Positions 2,322 through 42,545 of a stretch of 48,423 bases of DNA are shown piece after piece. Every line of letters begins with the position of its first letter. Positions within the stretch are counted from its first letter, which is position 1. The notes under the pieces are model-generated. The model was not told the origin of the DNA, did not search any database, and saw only the letters and a list, made by a program, of their open reading frames with translations. Made by a program: the position numbers and the translations under genes. Source of the DNA: Deltaproteobacteria bacterium (GTDB lineage: Bacteria; Desulfobacterota; Desulfarculia; Adiutricales; Adiutricaceae); NCBI GenBank assembly GCA_031264015.1, contig JAISET010000114.1:1-48423 (forward strand), written 5' to 3'.

Positions 2322-4082
2322 TCAGCTCTTTTTCTCATTTGCGTCAACAAGATTAGCAGATTCTATTTGGCCAGATTTATCCGCTAGAGACAGACCTTTA
2401 TGACGGCCAATCGCAAAGCAACAGGCAACAACATTTCTCAAATTATTGTCCAAGACAATCGACATAAGAATCGGATTCTTATATTGCCCTCCATGATTTT
2501 TCTTCACGATTTGTTCCAAACCGATTTTTGCCACATCCTTAGGATCTTGTCCTCCGCCTGCCATCTTGAGTTCGATCACATAGATTTTTCCAAGAAAAGA
2601 CACGACCAGATCGGATCTTCCCAGATTGCCGCTCTTTTCCTTTTCTACTAGAACTCCGGCATTATATAAGTACTTATATAAAATAGTCTGATAAGTTGAT
2701 TCACCTGGCTGTCGTTTTCTTGACTCAACCGCCGGTTCAGAGTTTGGTGAATTATTAAATTTATATTCGACAGCAAACAATGCCTGGTAATTTGTTTTCG
2801 AAAAGAAACTCCGTATGTGTTGAAAAACAAGACCAGGATCCCCGGAACCGAGGCATTTTGAAAGATCAGAAAAATAATCTTCAACAGTATTTACCGAGTT
2901 GTCCATCATCGCCAGGGTGGATAGTCTGGACATCGACTTCCTGACCTCTCCATTAGGATAGCTGAGGCTCAAACCGCCATCATCATCTTGCCGAATAGTA
3001 AGATAGCCGGCCTGATAAAGAAAACCCTCGGGCGATGTTGTTTCCAGCTCGCCAGGTTCCGAAGCAAAATCATTATCGATGCGCATCCCATCGTAGTCAA
3101 TAGAAAATGCTGCCTTATCCAATAAAAACTGCCTCAAATAAATATTAGATCCTGACTTAATCCAAAAATTATTGATCGCCCCACTTTCTATACACATAAC
3201 GATAGAATGTGGATTGTATACCCTAGTCAAACCGTCAAAAGAATACCCGTCATATTCGTTTCGCAGAGCTTCAAGAAGCGTAGGCACGTCCATGTTGTTC
3301 TTTTTAGCTAAATCGGAGAAAAAAGGAACAAAATATTTTTCAAGTTCCTTTTGAGTAAAGCCGCAGAGCGCGGCATATTCCGGTCGCAAAGAAAGGTCAA
3401 TCAAGGAATTAAGTTCCGAAAACACACCCATTTTGGAAAATTTAGTGACTCCAGTGATCAGCGTGAAGCCGAGAAAAAACTCATTCACTTTGATTTTTGA
3501 ATAGAATTGTCTCATAATGTTGCGCATATCGTCAATCAGTTTAAGATCCCAAAGCTTCCTTTCCTTTTGCATGAGACTTATCACCGGGCTATCGTATTCA
3601 TCTATCAGGAGAACACACTTAGAGTCAGGGGACTTCAATGCTAAAATTTCTATAAGTTCCTCAAAACGGTCGTCAAAAAGAGGATTTACCAGGGAGACGC
3701 CATTCATTTCGGCGATTTTATCAAGAGTGTTAATTAGTTTACTTTTTAATAGAACCGTGCTTGATATGTCAGTATCTGAAGTCACCACTTTGACGGCGCT
3801 CATATCAAGGTGGATGACAGGATGAGGGAAGAAAACGCTCGATTTCATGAACTCTTCAGCCCCAAGCCCCTCAAACAAATTGGTTCTACCAGAAAAAAAA
3901 GCATTCAGAGATGAAAGCAAAAGCGTCTTGCCAAAACGCCTGGGTCTGGCCAGAAATTTCGGATTAAACATGGAAGGAACATAAAAACTAGGGAAAAAAT
4001 TTGACTTATCAACATAGGGAATCTGCCTACGAAGAATGTCAGCAAAAAGAAGACTTCTGGAATTTTTAAAATCATCATTCAT
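2322..4082 (-). CDS. AAA-ATPase-like / PD-(D/E)XK nuclease fusion protein
   Basis: The protein belongs to the large family with an N-terminal AAA-ATPase-like domain and a C-terminal PD-(D/E)XK nuclease-like domain (formerly DUF1703). The N-terminus shows a Walker A of the family type (RPRRFGKT, residues 46-53). Walker B is LLIDEYDSP at about 157-165. Near the C-terminus a nuclease core is seen: Asp at about 490 (GRSDLVV) and Glu-x-Lys at about 504-506 (YVIELK). Both catalytic halves look intact. Such genes are abundant and multicopy in some gut Bacteroidetes and termite-gut bacteria; mobility or defence roles have been suggested but not shown. The gene is strikingly AT-rich and is followed upstream by an AT-rich desert, which supports horizontal gain. 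It starts at ATG with AAAGGCGAG upstream. It has no partner gene. Confidence 0.85.
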   Translation of the reverse strand: MNDDFKNSRSLLFADILRRQIPYVDKSNFFPSFYVPSMFNPKFLARPRRFGKTLLLSSLNAFFSGRTNLFEGLGAEEFMKSSVFFPHPVIHLDMSAVKVVTSDTDISSTVLLKSKLINTLDKIAEMNGVSLVNPLFDDRFEELIEILALKSPDSKCVLLIDEYDSPVISLMQKERKLWDLKLIDDMRNIMRQFYSKIKVNEFFLGFTLITGVTKFSKMGVFSELNSLIDLSLRPEYAALCGFTQKELEKYFVPFFSDLAKKNNMDVPTLLEALRNEYDGYSFDGLTRVYNPHSIVMCIESGAINNFWIKSGSNIYLRQFLLDKAAFSIDYDGMRIDNDFASEPGELETTSPEGFLYQAGYLTIRQDDDGGLSLSYPNGEVRKSMSRLSTLAMMDNSVNTVEDYFSDLSKCLGSGDPGLVFQHIRSFFSKTNYQALFAVEYKFNNSPNSEPAVESRKRQPGESTYQTILYKYLYNAGVLVEKEKSGNLGRSDLVVSFLGKIYVIELKMAGGGQDPKDVAKIGLEQIVKKNHGGQYKNPILMSIVLDNNLRNVVACCFAIGRHKGLSLADKSGQIESANLVDANEKKS

Positions 4083-10981: not shown

Positions 10982-12004
10982 TCACCCGCCGACCACGTTG
11001 ACGGGATTCCCCTTTAGAAACTGGAACAAATTCTCCCAGCCCGAGGCCATCAGCCTCTTCCTGGCGGCCAGCGACGTCCCGGCCAGGTGCGGGGTCATAA
11101 AGACGTTCCTGGCCTTCCCCAGCGGGTTGTGCGCCGTCAGCGGCTCGACGGAGACCACGTCGAGGCCGGCCGCCCGGACTTTTTTATAATACAGGGCCTC
11201 GCTCAGGGCCTCCTCGTCGATCAGCTTCCCCCGGGCGACGTTGATGATGATAACCCCGTCCTTCATCCCGGCGATGGACTCCCGATTGATCATGCGCTCG
11301 GTGGAGGGGGTCAGGGGGCAGGCCAGGACCAGGACGTCCGAGCTGGACATCACCTGGGGAAGAGGGACGTATTCCGCCAGCCGGTCCGACCGGGGGTTGG
11401 GATGATCCTGGTCGGCCAGGACCCTCATGCCCAGCCCGACGGCGGCCCTGGCCACGGCCAGGCCGATGCGCCCGAGACCGACCACGCCCATGGTCAGGCC
11501 GTCCAGCTCCAGGATGGGAAAATCGGTGTAGCACTTCGGCCGCGACTTGACCCAGCGGCCCTCCCTGACCTCGGCGCCGTAATAGCCGACGTGGTTGCAG
11601 ATCTCGAGCAGGAGGGCGACGGCGTGCTGGCCGACCGTGGCGGAGCAGAAGCCCGGGACGTTGGTGACGGTCACCCCGAATTCTTTGGCGGCCTCGAGGT
11701 CGATTAAGTCATAGCCGATGGTCAGCGCCCCCAGGTATTTGAGATTTTTCGCCCCCTCGAAAATCTTCCTGGTGAAGCGGGTCACCGTGGTCAGGACCAC
11801 CGTGGCGTCCTTGATCAGCTTCGGCACCTCGACCTGCCTGACGCTCTCGACGATCCTGAGCTCGCCCAGCTCGCCGAAATGATCCCAGGAAAGGTCGCCG
11901 GGGTTGTGAAACTGGGCGTCCAAAATCACAATTTTTTCCCTGTCGGCGGCCTTGGACTCGGCGGCCGTCGCCATCTCGACTTCCCCCGTCACTTTCTCGT
12001 TCAT
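10982..12004 (-). CDS. D-2-hydroxyacid dehydrogenase (NAD-dependent)
   Basis: A member of the D-isomer-specific 2-hydroxyacid dehydrogenase family (glycerate/hydroxypyruvate/lactate type), which reduces 2-keto acids with NAD(P)H in the cytosol. The Rossmann motif GVVGLGRIG is at residues 173-181, and the catalytic triad is Arg258 (NVARGK), Glu287 (SVEPL) and His306 (TPHLAG). The protein has 340 residues, with an extra N-terminal tail of about 22 residues before the first beta strand (KIVILDAQ). ATG at 12004 is well supported by AGGAGGA six bases upstream. The motif ALTIGYDLIDLEAAKEFG is typical of the glycerate dehydrogenase-like branch. The substrate cannot be fixed from sequence. It has no operon partner. 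Confidence 0.9.
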   Translation of the reverse strand: MNEKVTGEVEMATAAESKAADREKIVILDAQFHNPGDLSWDHFGELGELRIVESVRQVEVPKLIKDATVVLTTVTRFTRKIFEGAKNLKYLGALTIGYDLIDLEAAKEFGVTVTNVPGFCSATVGQHAVALLLEICNHVGYYGAEVREGRWVKSRPKCYTDFPILELDGLTMGVVGLGRIGLAVARAAVGLGMRVLADQDHPNPRSDRLAEYVPLPQVMSSSDVLVLACPLTPSTERMINRESIAGMKDGVIIINVARGKLIDEEALSEALYYKKVRAAGLDVVSVEPLTAHNPLGKARNVFMTPHLAGTSLAARKRLMASGWENLFQFLKGNPVNVVGG

Positions 12005-12301
12005 CGCGTCCTCCTGCCGGCCGGCCCCGCGGCGTCAAAGCGTCCCGGCGCCCGGCCGTCCCGTTTCGCGTCCGGGCGGATAAATTATGGCCGGCCGACG
12101 ACGGGGGCCCCTCCCCGCCTTCCCCTGTTCATGCCTGGTCATGACAAGCGCCTGCTAGTGAAAAAATGTTAGCAGACCGGGCCGGCCTCTTCAAGCCCGG
12201 GCCGAAACCCGCCTGAAATGATCGCCGCCGCCCCCAAGACGACCGTCGGGCCTCCCATTGATTTTCGCCCACGTCCTCGCCTCGGCGCCCTAGCCGACTC
12301 A

Positions 12302-12376
12302 AAAAAACGGTTCATAATGTTGGCCGCCCCCCCCCTTGCCTCGACAGATGAAATGCTTAATTCTGCATTTCATAGA
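12302..12376 (+). repeat. Dispersed 75-bp repeat, copy A
   Basis: This 75-base element is almost identical to 29178-29251. It differs only by one C in a long C tract (9 here, 8 there) and one substitution (TTGCCTCGAC against TTGCCACGAC). It contains a stem-loop with 9-bp perfect arms (ATGAAATGC and GCATTTCAT around TTAATTCT). Both copies have the same orientation, upstream of a minus-strand gene. Confidence 0.9.
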
Positions 12377-12569
12377 AAAACGCCGCGAAGACTCCCTCCC
12401 CTCGCCCCTCGCCGCCCGCCGTCCGACCGGGAAGAAAAACCGACTGACGCCCGGATTGCGCCGCCGGCCAGAACTCCAATCAAAATTATCACAAATTCAC
12501 ATTTTTACCATGATAATCACTCAAACTTAACAATATTTACCACCCGGGGTTATTTTCTTTGTAAAGACG

Positions 12570-12699: not shown

Positions 12700-14874
12700 A
12701 TGCCCTGCAAATTTTTAACTCCATTTCTCTGCCTATGCCTGCTGCTCCTCGCCTCCACGGGCCTGGAGGCGGCAGGCGACGACCCCCTCTCCCTGGACTC
12801 CATCACGGTCACGGCCCAAAAAAGGGCGGAATACGTCCAGGAGGTGCCCGTCTCCATCGACGTCATCGACGAAAGGGCCGTCGAGGAGAAAGGGATCAGA
12901 CAATTCATGGACCTCGGCACCCTGGTGCCCAACCTGACCGTCAGCTCCTCGGGAGGCGCGGCCACCTATGCGTATTTGGGCATGAGGGGCCGGGTCAACA
13001 GCTCCGGGGGCGACATGGACCCGACGGTCACGGTCATGCTCGACGGCGTCGCCTTCGACGACTTCAACTCGGTCGCCTCGCTGCCCATGTTCGACATAGA
13101 GCGCATAGAGGTCCTGAGGGGGCCGCAGTCGACCCTGTACGGGTTCAACAGCGAGGCCGGAGTCATCAACGTAATCACCCGCAAGCCGGGCCCCGACGCC
13201 AGGGCCAGGTTCGGCCTGACCTTCGGGGACGGACGCGACTCGGACTTCAGCTACGGAGTCCAGGGGGCCTTCAGCGCCCCGGTGGTCCGGGACGTTCTCT
13301 CCGTGGGGCTGTCTTTCAACGGCGCCCAGGACGGCAGCTACATCAACAACATTCATGCCGACGACGACTACGCCCGCAACCGGCGCAGCGCCGTCCGCTT
13401 TTCCGCCGTCCTGACCCCCGCCGAGGCCTTTGAGGCGACGCTAAACGTCGGCTACTCGCAGGTCAAGGCCGACAACGGCTACATCTCCCTGCCCAGGGAC
13501 CTGGAGGCCGCCCAGCTCATGGGCTGGACCAGCTTCAACAAATGGGAGACCGACATCGACGCCCCCGAGTACAGCCGGGTCAAAAATTTCACGGCCGACC
13601 TGAACATGCGCCTGAAAACCGGGCCGGTCGACTTGGTCTCCATCACCTCCTGGCGGACTTCCGAGCAGGATTACCTGACCGATTTCGACATGGGAGCCAA
13701 GGGCGCGGCCTACAACTTGGTGTTCGCCCCCTTTCCGCTTCCGGGTCTCGCATTGGAGGGCTTGGTGGACAACCGTTATCGCACCTTCATGCAGGAGTTT
13801 CGGCTCATGTCCCCCGAGGACGACCCCTCGAACCTGGAGTGGATCGCAGGGCTCTTTTATCGCCACTCCGAGCGCCAGGTGAAAATGGGCATGGAGATGT
13901 TCATGTCGGGGGTCAGCATGACGGACATGCCCTTGGCGGACACGACTTTGGACCTCAACGACTTCGCCGTCTTCGGCCAGGCCACCTACCGGCTGTTCGA
14001 CAAGAGGCTGGGCCTGACGCTGGGCCTGAGGCAGGACTGGACCAGCCGGGAGATGGATGACAGGATTTATTTCATCGGGGAAAAATTTAAGAAAAACGAC
14101 TCCCAGCTGATCCCGAAATTCTCCGTCGACTATCGGCTGACACCGGAGAACATGGTCTACCTGACCGCCACCAAGGGCTGGAGGCCCGGGGGCCTCTACA
14201 ACGTGCAGACCTACGACTACACCTCGCTCCCCGACAGAAGCGACGTCTATTTCGAAAAGGAGACGAGCTGGACTTACGAGCTGGGGAGCAAGAACCACTT
14301 TTTCCAGAACCGTCTCATGCTGAACCTGGCCTTTTATCACACCGACTACAACGGCTACCAGGACCAGTTCGTCCTCAACAATCAGACCAGCTTTTTCCGC
14401 AACGCCGGCAAGGCCAGGGCCTACGGCCTGGAGCTGGAGGGCCTGGCGGAAATAACCGACAATGTGACGGCCAGTTTCGGGTTCGGCTGGAACAAGGGCA
14501 CGTATAAAAGATATGTCGACTTGAGCGGCGACTACTCCGGCAAGAACGTCACCTCCTTCCCCGGATACACGGGCAACCTGGGCCTCAACTTCAGGTTCCT
14601 GGACGGGTTTTACGTCTCCCCGGAAATCAGGTTTGTCGGCAAGACTTATTGGGACAGGGAAAACCTTTATTCCCAAAAGGCCTACAACACCCTGCACCTG
14701 AGAATGGGCTACCAGACGGAGCGCTGGGAGCTTTTTCTCTTCGGCGACAACCTCGCCAACAAATACGCCATCGTCAAGGGCCTCCCCAGCGCGGTCACGT
14801 CCTTCGGGGAAAGATACGGCGTGCCCACCAGGCCCCTGCAGGCAGGTGTTGGCTTCAACTTCTATTACGAATAA
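12700..14874 (+). CDS. FyuA-like TonB-dependent siderophore receptor
   Basis: A 724-residue receptor with a signal peptide (to about 24, LLLASTGLEA), a TonB box (DSITVTAQK), a plug with LGMRGRVNSSGG, TVTVMLDGV and IERIEVLRGPQSTLYG, and VINVITRKPG. The barrel ends in LQAGVGFNFYYE. The plug style (RAEYVQEVPVSIDVIDERAVEEKGI) is that of the FyuA/pesticin-yersiniabactin receptor branch. An ideal ribosome site (GGAGG, 7 bases) fixes the start. With the YbtPQ-like transporters and AraC regulators to its right, it makes a locus like those for ferric-metallophore uptake, in which the receptor brings the complex into the periplasm. The specific ligand is unknown, and no biosynthetic genes are seen, so the cell may use metallophores made by others. 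Confidence 0.88.
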   Translation: MPCKFLTPFLCLCLLLLASTGLEAAGDDPLSLDSITVTAQKRAEYVQEVPVSIDVIDERAVEEKGIRQFMDLGTLVPNLTVSSSGGAATYAYLGMRGRVNSSGGDMDPTVTVMLDGVAFDDFNSVASLPMFDIERIEVLRGPQSTLYGFNSEAGVINVITRKPGPDARARFGLTFGDGRDSDFSYGVQGAFSAPVVRDVLSVGLSFNGAQDGSYINNIHADDDYARNRRSAVRFSAVLTPAEAFEATLNVGYSQVKADNGYISLPRDLEAAQLMGWTSFNKWETDIDAPEYSRVKNFTADLNMRLKTGPVDLVSITSWRTSEQDYLTDFDMGAKGAAYNLVFAPFPLPGLALEGLVDNRYRTFMQEFRLMSPEDDPSNLEWIAGLFYRHSERQVKMGMEMFMSGVSMTDMPLADTTLDLNDFAVFGQATYRLFDKRLGLTLGLRQDWTSREMDDRIYFIGEKFKKNDSQLIPKFSVDYRLTPENMVYLTATKGWRPGGLYNVQTYDYTSLPDRSDVYFEKETSWTYELGSKNHFFQNRLMLNLAFYHTDYNGYQDQFVLNNQTSFFRNAGKARAYGLELEGLAEITDNVTASFGFGWNKGTYKRYVDLSGDYSGKNVTSFPGYTGNLGLNFRFLDGFYVSPEIRFVGKTYWDRENLYSQKAYNTLHLRMGYQTERWELFLFGDNLANKYAIVKGLPSAVTSFGERYGVPTRPLQAGVGFNFYYE

Positions 14875-15188: not shown

Positions 15189-16427
15189 TTATTCCTCCTC
15201 GGCCGGGCGGGAGACGCCGTCCCTGGCCTGCCTACGCAGCTGCCCCGGGGTCAGGCCGAACTCGGCCCGGAAGGCCGCGATGAAATGACTGGTGTTGCTG
15301 TAGCCGACCAGATTGGCCACCAGTCCGACCTGCTTTTCCGATTTGGCGACCAGATGGCGGGCCTGCCTCATCCGCTCCCGGCGGAGGATGTCGCTGAATG
15401 TCTCCCCGAAATATTCCCTGAACCCGCTTTTGACCTTGTTTTCGTTGAGCCCGCAGTGCCGGGACAGAATCTTGAGGCTGGGCGGCGAGACGACGTCCCT
15501 GATGAGCATCCGCCTGGCCAGCCTGAGCTTGTCGAGGTCGTTCTCGCTAAAAAACAGCCTCTCTCTTCTGGGGACCACCATCTGGCTCAAATACAAGGCC
15601 GTCATCTCCAACGCCTTGCCCTCCAGAAACAGCTTCTGGCAGCTGTCGGGAAAGTGGCACCCGAGCATCTGGACGGCGATCTGCCTTTTCTGGGCGCTGA
15701 GCCGCTTCCGGCTGCAAAGAGACAGCGGGGACGCCCCGCCGGAATTGTCGCCGCCGCCGCGGCCGACGCCGCCGCCGTCATCGGCGAAGACGTCGCCTCC
15801 GCGGCTCCCGGCCAGGGAGAACGGAACGCAGAAAGTCCGCCCGGGTTTCCGAGGCCCAGGCGGCATGTCCGCCCCCCGGCGGGCGCCGACGCCGTCGGGC
15901 TCCCCGCCCGTCCCGCCGTCGTCCAATAAACGCGAGACGTGGCGCTCCAGAAACTCCCGGCGAATGATTATGGTCACCGACTGCAAAGAGCGCCCCCGGG
16001 GGAGAATAATCCGCCCGCCGAGGTCGTTGATCCAATAGACGCTCTCGGAGGGGCCCGCCGCCGGGCTGAACAAATGCCCGTGGCGGCCGTCCGCCGAACC
16101 CGGGTAAAAATCGGCCTCGGTCTCCCCTCCGACGACGGTGGTCAGACACAGGGCGCTGCCCCGATAAAAAAAGTAGTCGGCCAGATCCTCGAGGGCGGTC
16201 GCCTCGGCCAAAAACAAATCCAGCCCGGGCCGCATGCTCTCCAGACGCCCGAACTTTTCGGGGAAGCGGCAGGCCCCGCCAAAATGACCGCCCCTCCGAT
16301 AGATTTCAGCGGAGGCGGAGGCCAGGCCCGGCAAAATCCCAGACGACATCTCGGCCGACATTCCGCAGGTCTCGTCCGCAAGACGGAGGCGTTTGACTTT
16401 GGCTTCTTTTTTTAAAGACCAGACCAT
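15189..16427 (-). CDS. AraC-family transcriptional regulator (YbtA/PchR-like)
   Basis: The C-terminal 100 residues carry two helix-turn-helix units: LKILSRHCGLNENKVKSGF and QVGLVANLVGYSNTSHFIAAF, followed by GLTPGQLRR. This is the DNA-binding domain of AraC regulators. The N-terminal 300 residues are a sensor of the PchR/YbtA kind with a Gly/Asp-rich insertion (about 165-235). Such regulators bind a ferric siderophore and activate uptake genes. I kept the first ATG at 16427 although no clear ribosome site precedes it; ATG at residue 23 is a fair alternative. A 39-bp tandem duplication lies just upstream (16463-16540). It is oriented as the last gene after the MMPL transporter, so it may be cotranscribed. 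It probably controls the receptor and transporter genes. Confidence 0.85.
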   Translation of the reverse strand: MVWSLKKEAKVKRLRLADETCGMSAEMSSGILPGLASASAEIYRRGGHFGGACRFPEKFGRLESMRPGLDLFLAEATALEDLADYFFYRGSALCLTTVVGGETEADFYPGSADGRHGHLFSPAAGPSESVYWINDLGGRIILPRGRSLQSVTIIIRREFLERHVSRLLDDGGTGGEPDGVGARRGADMPPGPRKPGRTFCVPFSLAGSRGGDVFADDGGGVGRGGGDNSGGASPLSLCSRKRLSAQKRQIAVQMLGCHFPDSCQKLFLEGKALEMTALYLSQMVVPRRERLFFSENDLDKLRLARRMLIRDVVSPPSLKILSRHCGLNENKVKSGFREYFGETFSDILRRERMRQARHLVAKSEKQVGLVANLVGYSNTSHFIAAFRAEFGLTPGQLRRQARDGVSRPAEEE

Positions 16428-16462: not shown

Positions 16463-16540
16463 AAGACGACAAACCGAAGATCTTTAAAACGACGTTCATG
16501 CAAGACGATAAACCGAAGATCATTAAAACGACGTTCAGGC
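16463..16540. repeat. 39-bp tandem duplication upstream of araC-family gene
   Basis: Two 39-base units lie head to tail (16463-16501 and 16502-16540), differing at four or so positions. The core AAACCGAAGATC-TTAAAACGACGTTCA is shared. Position, 36 bases before the araC-family start, suggests an operator pair for autoregulation. AraC proteins commonly bind direct repeats. Confidence 0.85.
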
Positions 16541-28606: not shown

Positions 28607-29080
28607 CTACGCTCCCCGGGGAGGCCGGCCGGCATCCTTGGGTATGCCCAAAATGGCCTTGGTCAGAGGGATGCCGGTGGCGATGCCAAACAAGGCGGAG
28701 ACATAAACCGAACCGAGAACGTACGGGAAGGCGTGCAGAAAGGCGCCCCAAAACCAGGGGCCGATGCCCGCGTTGACGGCCACCATGAGCAGGCACATGA
28801 AAACTCCCATCATGCAGGCCAGAAAAAAGGTGGACAAAAGCCTCTCCGGCATGGAGTGCTCCCTGACCCCGAACAAAGCCGCTATCTTGTGGCTGGCGGG
28901 AACCACGGGGACGACGAAGACCAGGACGGTGCTGGCGACGAAGGAAATAACGAGGCCTTTGAGAAAAATCTCCCAGGTCACCGTGTGGATGAGCACGTAG
29001 GGCAGCGCGTAGCTCAGGACGGCGCTGATGACCAGGGACATCCACAAATTCATGATGACGTCGAATTTTGTGATTTTCAT
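28607..29080 (-). CDS. Four-helix membrane protein (DUF2798-like)
   Basis: The 157-residue protein has four hydrophobic helices (about 10-30, 37-60, 84-106, 113-135). The two halves look alike: each pair is followed by a Pro/Lys-Ile/Gly end (PVVPASHKIAALFG and ATGIPLTKAILGI), which suggests duplication of a two-helix unit as in DUF2798. I chose ATG at 29080, as AGGAG is properly spaced; the longer frame would begin with TTG at 29095. Function unknown. Copy B of the dispersed repeat lies about 100-170 bases upstream. Confidence 0.6.
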   Translation of the reverse strand: MKITKFDVIMNLWMSLVISAVLSYALPYVLIHTVTWEIFLKGLVISFVASTVLVFVVPVVPASHKIAALFGVREHSMPERLLSTFFLACMMGVFMCLLMVAVNAGIGPWFWGAFLHAFPYVLGSVYVSALFGIATGIPLTKAILGIPKDAGRPPRGA

Positions 29081-29665
29081 GACGATCTCCTGCAAATGAG
29101 TTGGAAAAAAATAACGTGGCCGCTGGCGAATCCGTCAGGGACCGGCCGGCCGCGGAGCAAATAAAAAAACTTCTCCCAAAAAACGGTTCATAATGTTGGC
29201 CGCCCCCCCCTTGCCACGACAGATGAAATGCTTAATTCTGCATTTCATAGAGAAGGTCTGGGCAAAAAATTTGGAGCGGAAAAAGCCAGGGCCGAATAAA
29301 AATCTCTGGATGCGAAAAAATAATCTGAATAAAAGTGAGACAAATAGTCGCACCATTTATAAGTAAAAATATAATTGACACGAAGTGACGCTAATTAACT
29401 GGTAAGTTTACAAACTTTGGCGCCCTGAAGAACAACCAAGCATAACCGTCATAATCGGTAGTCAGGCATTAATGTCGATTGTCCACAAAAACCTATGAGA
29501 GGTCAGAAAATTTCAAATATAAAAACCCGCTCTCTTTTCCAGATGATTTTCCACACTATTTATTTTCAGTCGAGTAGTGCAAACTACATGTGTATAATCA
29601 CGAAATCTGATATTTCTGTAGCGTCCCAAAAAAAGCGGTCATACATTTACCGGGGAGGCAAGACG
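29081..29665. other. Divergent intergenic region before crp/fnr-like gene
   Basis: Besides the dispersed repeat, the stretch is AT-rich from 29340 to 29640 and has a TTGACA at 29374-29379 without a clear -10. The frame preceding the regulator (29495-29665) is open but has no ribosome site and no resemblance to the family N-terminus, so it is left out of the gene. Confidence 0.5.
29178..29251 (+). repeat. Dispersed 74-bp repeat, copy B
   Basis: Nearly identical to 12302-12376, with the same 9-bp stem-loop (ATGAAATGC at 29223-29231 and GCATTTCAT at 29240-29248) and an 8-base C tract. It lies upstream of the small membrane-protein gene and of the Crp/Fnr-like gene. Confidence 0.9.
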
Positions 29666-30388
29666 ATGTCTGATTCCGAGAAGGGAAAAACAAGGGGCGG
29701 CATTGACAGGCAGGACGGCTACACCAAATACCCCAGCCGGGTTTTGTACCTGCCGCGGGGGGTGGAGCGGCTGAGCTCGCTGGGTGTCCTGAAAAGTTTT
29801 CCCAAGGACAGGGTCATTTCAAAACAGGACGAAATGCCACAATATTGCTACGTGGTTGCCAAGGGCATGGTCACGGCCTACGACTACTCGGTCAACGGCA
29901 GCGAGAGAATCTACAACCTGATGGAGCGCAACGCCGTCTTGTTGGAGGCCAACCTGCTGATGAGAATTCCGGCGCCCGTTTATTTTCGCGCGGCGGTCGA
30001 CTCAGATTTGATATGCATAGATCGTGAAAATTTACTTAACGCCATGATTGATGATCCAGAAGTTAATTTTGATATCATTCAATCACTTTCCATTAAGTTT
30101 TTGTCGTCGATGGATCAAATTAGACAGTCCGGAAGCTTCAACGCCTCATGGAAAATTACGAACTTGCTCCTAATATTTGCCGACCATTACGGGGTGAACT
30201 ACGAGGGCAAGGTCATGATCAAACAAAAAATCAGCCAGCAGATGCTCAGCAACATGCTGGGCATCAACCGGATCACCACCGTCCACGTCATCAAAAATCT
30301 GAGGGACATGGGTCTGATCGAAAACGTCAACGGCTACTACTGCATCCGCGACGTCGATAAGATGAAAATCCACCTGGACTACTGCTGA
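29666..30388 (+). CDS. Crp/Fnr-family transcriptional regulator
   Basis: A 240-residue regulator with a cyclic-nucleotide-binding-like fold (VVAKGMVTAYDYSVNGSERIYNLMERNAVLLEANLL) and a C-terminal winged helix-turn-helix (KISQQMLSNMLGINRITTVHVIKNLRDMGLIENVNGYYCIRD). ATG at 29666 has GGGGAGG seven bases before it; the open frame extends 57 codons upstream, but those residues are unlike the family. No cysteine cluster of the Fnr type is seen in the N-terminus, so oxygen sensing via iron-sulfur is unlikely. Composition is mosaic: the middle (about 30005-30175) is markedly AT-rich against GC-rich flanks. Its targets are unknown; it stands alone. Confidence 0.85.
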   Translation: MSDSEKGKTRGGIDRQDGYTKYPSRVLYLPRGVERLSSLGVLKSFPKDRVISKQDEMPQYCYVVAKGMVTAYDYSVNGSERIYNLMERNAVLLEANLLMRIPAPVYFRAAVDSDLICIDRENLLNAMIDDPEVNFDIIQSLSIKFLSSMDQIRQSGSFNASWKITNLLLIFADHYGVNYEGKVMIKQKISQQMLSNMLGINRITTVHVIKNLRDMGLIENVNGYYCIRDVDKMKIHLDYC

Positions 30389-42269: not shown

Positions 42270-42545
42270 AAAAGTCGTCCCGTCAACTTGTCCGTCGGCC
42301 GATTAATTATTTTCTTGGACAAATCGCTTGTCTGTCGGCCAATTAATTATTTTCTCGACCAGTCGACTTGTCGGCCGACAAATTAAACATTTTCATGTCC
42401 GATCAATTTGTTCGTCTCTAATTATATTTTTTTCCCGACCAGTCGGCTTGCCTGTCGGTCAATTAGCTTGTAGGTCCGCCAACTTACCATCAAACTGTTT
42501 CTTTGTTTGTTTTTTGTTTCACCTTTTTGCTCAGTGGGAGCCATT
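42270..42545. other. Intergenic region with 40-bp repeat array
   Basis: The stretch is dominated by the tandem array at 42287-42486, then a T-rich, CTTTTTG-containing piece and the ribosome site GGGAGCC at about 42536. No gene is visible. Confidence 0.6.
42287..42486. repeat. Five-unit degenerate 40-bp tandem array
   Basis: Units of exactly 40 bases begin at 42287, 42327, 42367, 42407 and 42447. The first two share CTTGTCnGTCGGCC-ATTAATTATTTTCT; the others keep CTTG, GTCGG and AATTA in phase. Unit 3 contains a 14-bp palindrome (TTGTCGGCCGACAA, 42368-42381). It sits just before the molybdopterin-binding gene and may bind a regulator. Confidence 0.85.

Follow-up and report, generated by a model that had tools for sequence, protein, structure and literature searches.

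The window, by which we mean the whole stretch of 48,423 nucleotides that was analysed, contains two near-identical copies of a 74-bp repeat that can fold into a hairpin, and the question that they raise is what kind of element this is: a miniature repeat family, an RNA regulator or a protein-binding site, as the original prediction put it. Both copies were recovered where that prediction had placed them, each between divergent open reading frames (ORFs), namely, 10982 to 12004 (minus strand) and 12700 to 14874 (plus strand) for copy 1 and 28607 to 29095 (minus strand) and 29495 to 30388 (plus strand) for copy 2. These neighbours are given as context only; Pfam confirmed the product of the ORF at 10982 to 12004 as a D-2-hydroxyacid dehydrogenase, and the ORF at 28607 to 29095, earlier described as a four-helix membrane protein, has no match in Pfam. 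Copy 1 is a plus-strand unit of 68 bp, from CGG to CATAG (12308 to 12375), with a left run of seven A's (12301 to 12307) made up of the target side and the shared core A's, and a right run of five A's (12376 to 12380). Copy 2, a plus-strand unit of 67 bp (29184 to 29250), is preceded by six A's (29178 to 29183) and followed by AGAA. Within the unit, the two copies differ as had been described, that is, in the length of the C tract (nine C's versus eight) and by T or A at TTGCC(T/A)CGAC, and outside the A-runs the flanking sequences are indeed unrelated. The arms ATGAAATGC and GCATTTCAT, both on the plus strand, are exact in both copies, at 12348 to 12356 and 12365 to 12373 in copy 1 (12348 to 12373 overall) and at 29223 to 29231 and 29240 to 29248 in copy 2 (29223 to 29248 overall). 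A scan for these arms around an 8-nt loop, with up to three mismatches, found no further place in the window, where 0.02 would be expected by chance.

The possibility that only these two copies exist, named beforehand as the outcome that would count against an element of interest, fails at the genome scale. When the entire assembly (3.95 Mb in 282 contigs, 87% complete) was searched at an E value of ≤1.3e-11, 31 places were returned: 27 complete short units, a further unit truncated at the end of a contig and, on longer IS110 remnants, three left ends. The 27 complete units measure 65 to 70 bp from CGG to TAG, with a pairwise identity of 81 to 100% (median, 91%), and their variation is concentrated in the C tract and a few positions of the stem. 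All share the plan A-run, CGG…CATAG, A-run: the left A-run is present in 27 of 27, with A at each of positions -5 to -1 in 21 to 27 of the 27 units, and AAA follows nearly all of them. Furthermore, two head-to-tail arrays occur, of three units on contig C191 and of two on contig C56, in which the joint reads TAG-AAA-CGG. One copy (L009; C266:29669-29745) lies near the start of an HTH-like gene, and the frame there fits a gain of three A's. An exact 20-mer of the unit is absent from 84,980 species genomes, a set which may omit the window's own genome, and a sequence-level search of 59 relatives with the window repeat gave no match; diverged miniature families in relatives were detected only when each relative's own ends were used as the query.

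In the longer remnants on contigs C204, C166, C98 and C136, the repeat is divided at a single point, GCTTA^ATTC (also written GCTTA^AATTC). On C204, C166 and C98, the left part runs up to GAAATGCTTA and then passes into a common sequence; on C98 and C136, a common sequence terminates with AATTCCGCATTTCA. In copy 1, the left-end part (CGGTTCATAATG ... C tract ... ATGAAATGCTTA; 12308 to 12359, plus strand) is the same sequence that precedes the remnants on C204, C166 and C98 and that starts the IS110 relative in G010, a genome of another genus of the same family; the right-end part (ATTCTGCATTTCATAG; 12360 to 12375, plus strand) also terminates the remnants on C98 and C136. The left non-coding stretch on C204 runs into an open frame (MSFSPIMQSAIGLDAHSK...) that has the start of an IS110-type transposase and is preserved as a 59-codon fragment. 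This frame is 76% identical to that of G010 and more distantly related to the IS110 transposases of other relatives; since the 59-residue fragment taken by itself matches PF01548 weakly (E = 0.21), its assignment to IS110 rests on these relatives. An ORF on C136 (DPDIVNEP...) was considered as the C terminus of the transposase and rejected, having no match to IS110 models. Short palindromes of about 45 bp (GTAACCATTCAGG.../GTAAGCGTTCACGG...) also lie in or beside the IS110 remnants (L038 on C166, L032 on C136 and L033 on C204); about 20 more places in the genome match their terminus, and they are possibly another miniature element.

In G010, the window-type left end precedes an IS110 gene, and no other copy of that end occurs in this genome. 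In G017, a relative of another genus, there are two full-length IS110 copies, 89% identical over about 2.0 kb and with unrelated flanks, which start at AAAACGCTCATGG and end at CTTTCATATAAAAA; their alignment runs from AAAACGCTCATGGAAGGCC...AAATGAAAG to ...AAACTTTCATATAAAAA and then stops. Their ends follow the plan of the window repeat, i.e., an A-run, ACG(G/C)..TCAT, a C-rich stretch, ATGAAA..., ...TTTCATA and an A-run. On the evidence of its matches to PF01548 (1.4e-23), PF02371 (4.6e-19) and the NCBIfam IS110 model NF033542 (1.5e-68), the encoded protein of 484 residues is clearly an IS110 transposase. The unrelated flanks of the two G017 elements, together with the occurrence of the G010 end with the insertion sequence only, indicate that the end sequences belong to the insertion sequence. 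Thus, as judged by sequence comparison, the 74-bp repeat is an IS110 left end joined to the corresponding right end, with the interior deleted, and we put the probability that it is a miniature derived from an IS110-family insertion sequence and devoid of a transposase at about 0.92. It follows that one of the three options of the original prediction, the miniature repeat family, stands and acquires an IS110 parent, while the RNA regulator and the protein-binding site received no support.

Miniature families with the plan of the window repeat are also present, separately, in four relatives, which brings the number of genomes to five. In G017, about 20 short derivatives were recovered by means of the ends of its own element, of about 111 bp except for one of 59 bp, including two tandem arrays. 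In G007, which belongs to the genus of G017, the units of the family measure about 149 bp and also form tandem arrays, and the family of G006 and G001, both from the genus of the window's species, is of about 63 bp (AAAAAAACGCTCATGATAAAACTTTAACRCCCCAGCAAATGAAAGTCTCGACRACTTTCATAG) and located in A-runs. The families of the five genomes have common ends and different middles. In addition, the inverted-repeat arms differ among the families and yet remain complementary, with 100% pairing in seven arm pairs and changes on both sides in 3 of 9 pairs; the covariation score of 0.481, compared with 0.186 ± 0.048 after shuffling (reached in 0 of 500 shuffles), is to be read as support and not as proof, because the rows were chosen by hand as representatives. 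As a separate observation, the tandem arrays of G007 on its contigs C158 (L178) and C19 (L179) are made of IS110-derived units of about 144 bp, each of which has a promoter-like TTGACA-N17-TACTAT, so that every array is a series of repeated promoter-like sites.

A search for target-site duplications, which the original prediction had recommended, revealed instead a gain of three A's within an A-run. The copy on contig C50 (L064, about 3533 to 4000) interrupts an OFA/MFS-type transporter gene, of which three intact relatives were noticed in G002. The orthologous MFS gene of G002 provides the empty site and reads LYFFYGG at the insertion point; the flanking bases number 11 in the interrupted gene and 8 in the orthologue, and by codon spacing the insert therefore corresponds to the unit plus three bases. 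At L010 (C46), the element interrupts one copy of a tandem repeat, with A7+A4 where the uninterrupted copy has A8, and at L018 it lies in a repeated segment of which the other copy, on C204, has A6, compared with A6+A3. The four lines of evidence, i.e., the C50 orthologue, L010, L018 and the AAA of the tandem joints, agree on CGG…TAG plus three A's. The three A's may be a duplicated target or may be carried by the element, two options that A-runs do not separate and which leave the exact ends unfixable there. For members of the IS110 family, recombination at a core of two bases has been reported, and in the duplications listed for IS110 elements one of the copies can be part of the insertion sequence (PMC11208160, PMC11187229). 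A TA target duplication of the IS630 kind, suggested by locus L004, was discarded, the orthologous gene showing a gain of three bases in an A/T run. The array at L010 (C46:about 450-900) consists of units of about 100 bp (GATGTCAAAAACC...TTGCACCA...) that are unrelated to the element, one of which contains it.

The same observations can be set against other readings of the repeat. It could be conceived as an independent repeat whose hairpin loop is merely a site of IS110 insertion, as QMITE2 of Coxiella is for IS1111 (PMC5896051), and the three loci at which an IS110 remnant follows the repeat halves or lies between them would agree with this, as would the known tendency of IS110-family elements to target repeats. 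However, both end sequences lie within the insertion sequence in the two G017 elements, the G010 left end occurs with the insertion sequence only, the miniatures of the five genomes have nothing but their ends in common, and the empty sites correspond to whole units inserted into A-runs, so that we regard this explanation as very improbable. A single hairpin found in both dispersed and tandem copies looks at first sight like a REP, which would speak for a REP/REPIN-like or IS200/IS605-type element with a Y1 transposase, i.e., a hairpin unit dispersed by a RAYT; instead, the ends match IS110 elements, insertion takes place into A-runs with three A's gained, and it is the hairpin sequence that varies between families while the ends are fixed, which makes a RAYT origin even less credible.

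Equally hard to believe is a regulatory role near gene starts, for which the repeat would have been retained as a cis-acting RNA element or a protein-binding site. Its appeal lies in the position of both window copies between divergent genes and in the folding of the plus-strand RNA, which is better than that of shuffled sequences (z = -2.5). Against it, an Rfam search returned no family for the repeat (nor any for the bridge/seek RNA of the parent), the lack of a sequence-level match extends to all 59 relatives, and the copy in the MFS gene on C50 is inside a coding gene. Moreover, the hairpin itself results from the two subterminal inverted repeats of the parent being joined by an internal deletion, and it is thus no evidence for a regulator.

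Under the IS110 origin, a deletion between the inner edges of the two subterminal inverted repeats of the parent would have joined GCTTA on the left to ATTC on the right, leaving about 52 nt of the left end and 16 nt of the right end, that is, the two recombination ends, and bringing both inverted repeats together as a hairpin. The unit would then leave its site as a putative small circle (RE-AAA-LE) and enter A-runs through the IS110 recombinase and the bridge/seek RNA of a full-length relative, presumably acting in trans and under RNA guidance; insertion beside another copy would produce the head-to-tail arrays. IS110 elements move via a circular intermediate with joined ends, their guide is a non-coding RNA produced from the longer non-coding region, this RNA can act in trans, and insertion of a cargo-bearing mini-IS is possible (PMC11208160, PMC11187229). 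The repeat is consistent with a natural mini-IS that moves in trans, and we infer such mobilisation from the copy number, the empty sites and the tandem arrays. In a simple scan, the pairing of a guide from the non-coding region with the ends or the target was not significant, and the U-run/hairpin/A-run pattern seen in the folded left non-coding regions is best taken as a lead. No IS110 transposase above threshold was found in the 87%-complete assembly, which yielded just the 59-codon fragment on C204; the family is therefore probably immobile in this genome at present, and mobility in this species is not attributable to a living helper, which appears to have been lost or to be absent from an assembly whose contigs are often broken at repeated elements. 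It is fairly probable, if less so than the origin of the repeat itself, that the IS110 lineage repeatedly spawns minimal donors of about 60 to 150 bp, made of the two ends only, which move in trans into A-runs under RNA guidance and stack in tandem.

Like IS110/IS1111 elements (IS621, ISEc11, ISPye46 and others), the parents of the repeat have a transposase of the DEDD family, found complete in G017 and as a fragment in the window's genome; they lack long terminal inverted repeats and have subterminal ones, and the ends of the repeat are those of full-length IS110 elements. The use of a short specific target with minimal duplication is also shared, as comparison with the orthologous empty site and with the two repeat-based ones shows a whole unit in an A-run, and so are joints resembling circle junctions. 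Different from them, the repeat has neither a transposase gene nor a non-coding RNA region. With respect to the subgroups, the extension beyond the inverted repeat is about 2 to 3 nt on the right (3 bp in IS1111) and about 40 nt on the left, compared with about 7 bp in IS1111, and the longer non-coding region is upstream in G017 (338 nt versus about 220 nt), while in IS1111 it follows the transposase gene. The parent thus has inverted repeats like those of IS1111, with an unusually long left extension, and, as in the IS110 group, a longer non-coding region upstream; it was assigned to neither subgroup.

Bacterial miniature inverted-repeat elements (MITEs) such as MITEPsy1, MITECca01, MITEPye1 and QMITE1 are likewise short, gene-less and multi-copy, have ends in common with a full-length, autonomous insertion sequence and are assumed to be mobilised in trans. 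However, they derive from families with terminal inverted repeats (IS982, IS1182 and, questionably, IS5) or have such repeats themselves, whereas the present repeat targets A-runs and has its inverted repeats inside the unit, as expected from IS110 elements, which have no terminal ones; "MITE-like" is for this reason the safer word. The repeat also resembles the engineered mini-IS of IS110/IS1111 (Siddiquee et al. 2024, PMC11187229), shortened to the ends and supplied with transposase and RNA in trans, but the latter is a laboratory construct with a cargo gene, and the former is natural, without cargo and amplified. In the open-licence literature searched, we found no IS110- or IS1111-derived MITE, which does not prove that none has been described.

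Programmable "bridge" recombination relies on IS110 recombinases, which are guided by RNA, and the miniatures of the five genomes show which ends suffice for a donor to be copied (about 40 to 55 nt on the left and 10 to 20 nt on the right), while dozens of natural insertions show the use of A-runs as targets. The miniatures suggest that action in trans occurs in nature and, if the repeated formation of minimal donors is true, they would be what evolution has produced in parallel to the donors engineered for bridge RNAs. A class of short hairpin repeats that one would otherwise take for RNAs or REPs is also explained by them, and the true ends of IS110 elements, which are hard to define, become easier to locate.

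Elsewhere in the window, two other short repeats were observed: a 40-bp unit (CTTGTCCGTCGGCCGATTAATTATTTTCTTGGACAAATCG) occurs three times in tandem at 42287 to 42406, with 63 to 75% identity to the reference copy, and two 39-bp tandem copies, 92% identical, lie at 16463 to 16540 and adjoin the ORF at 15189 to 16427.
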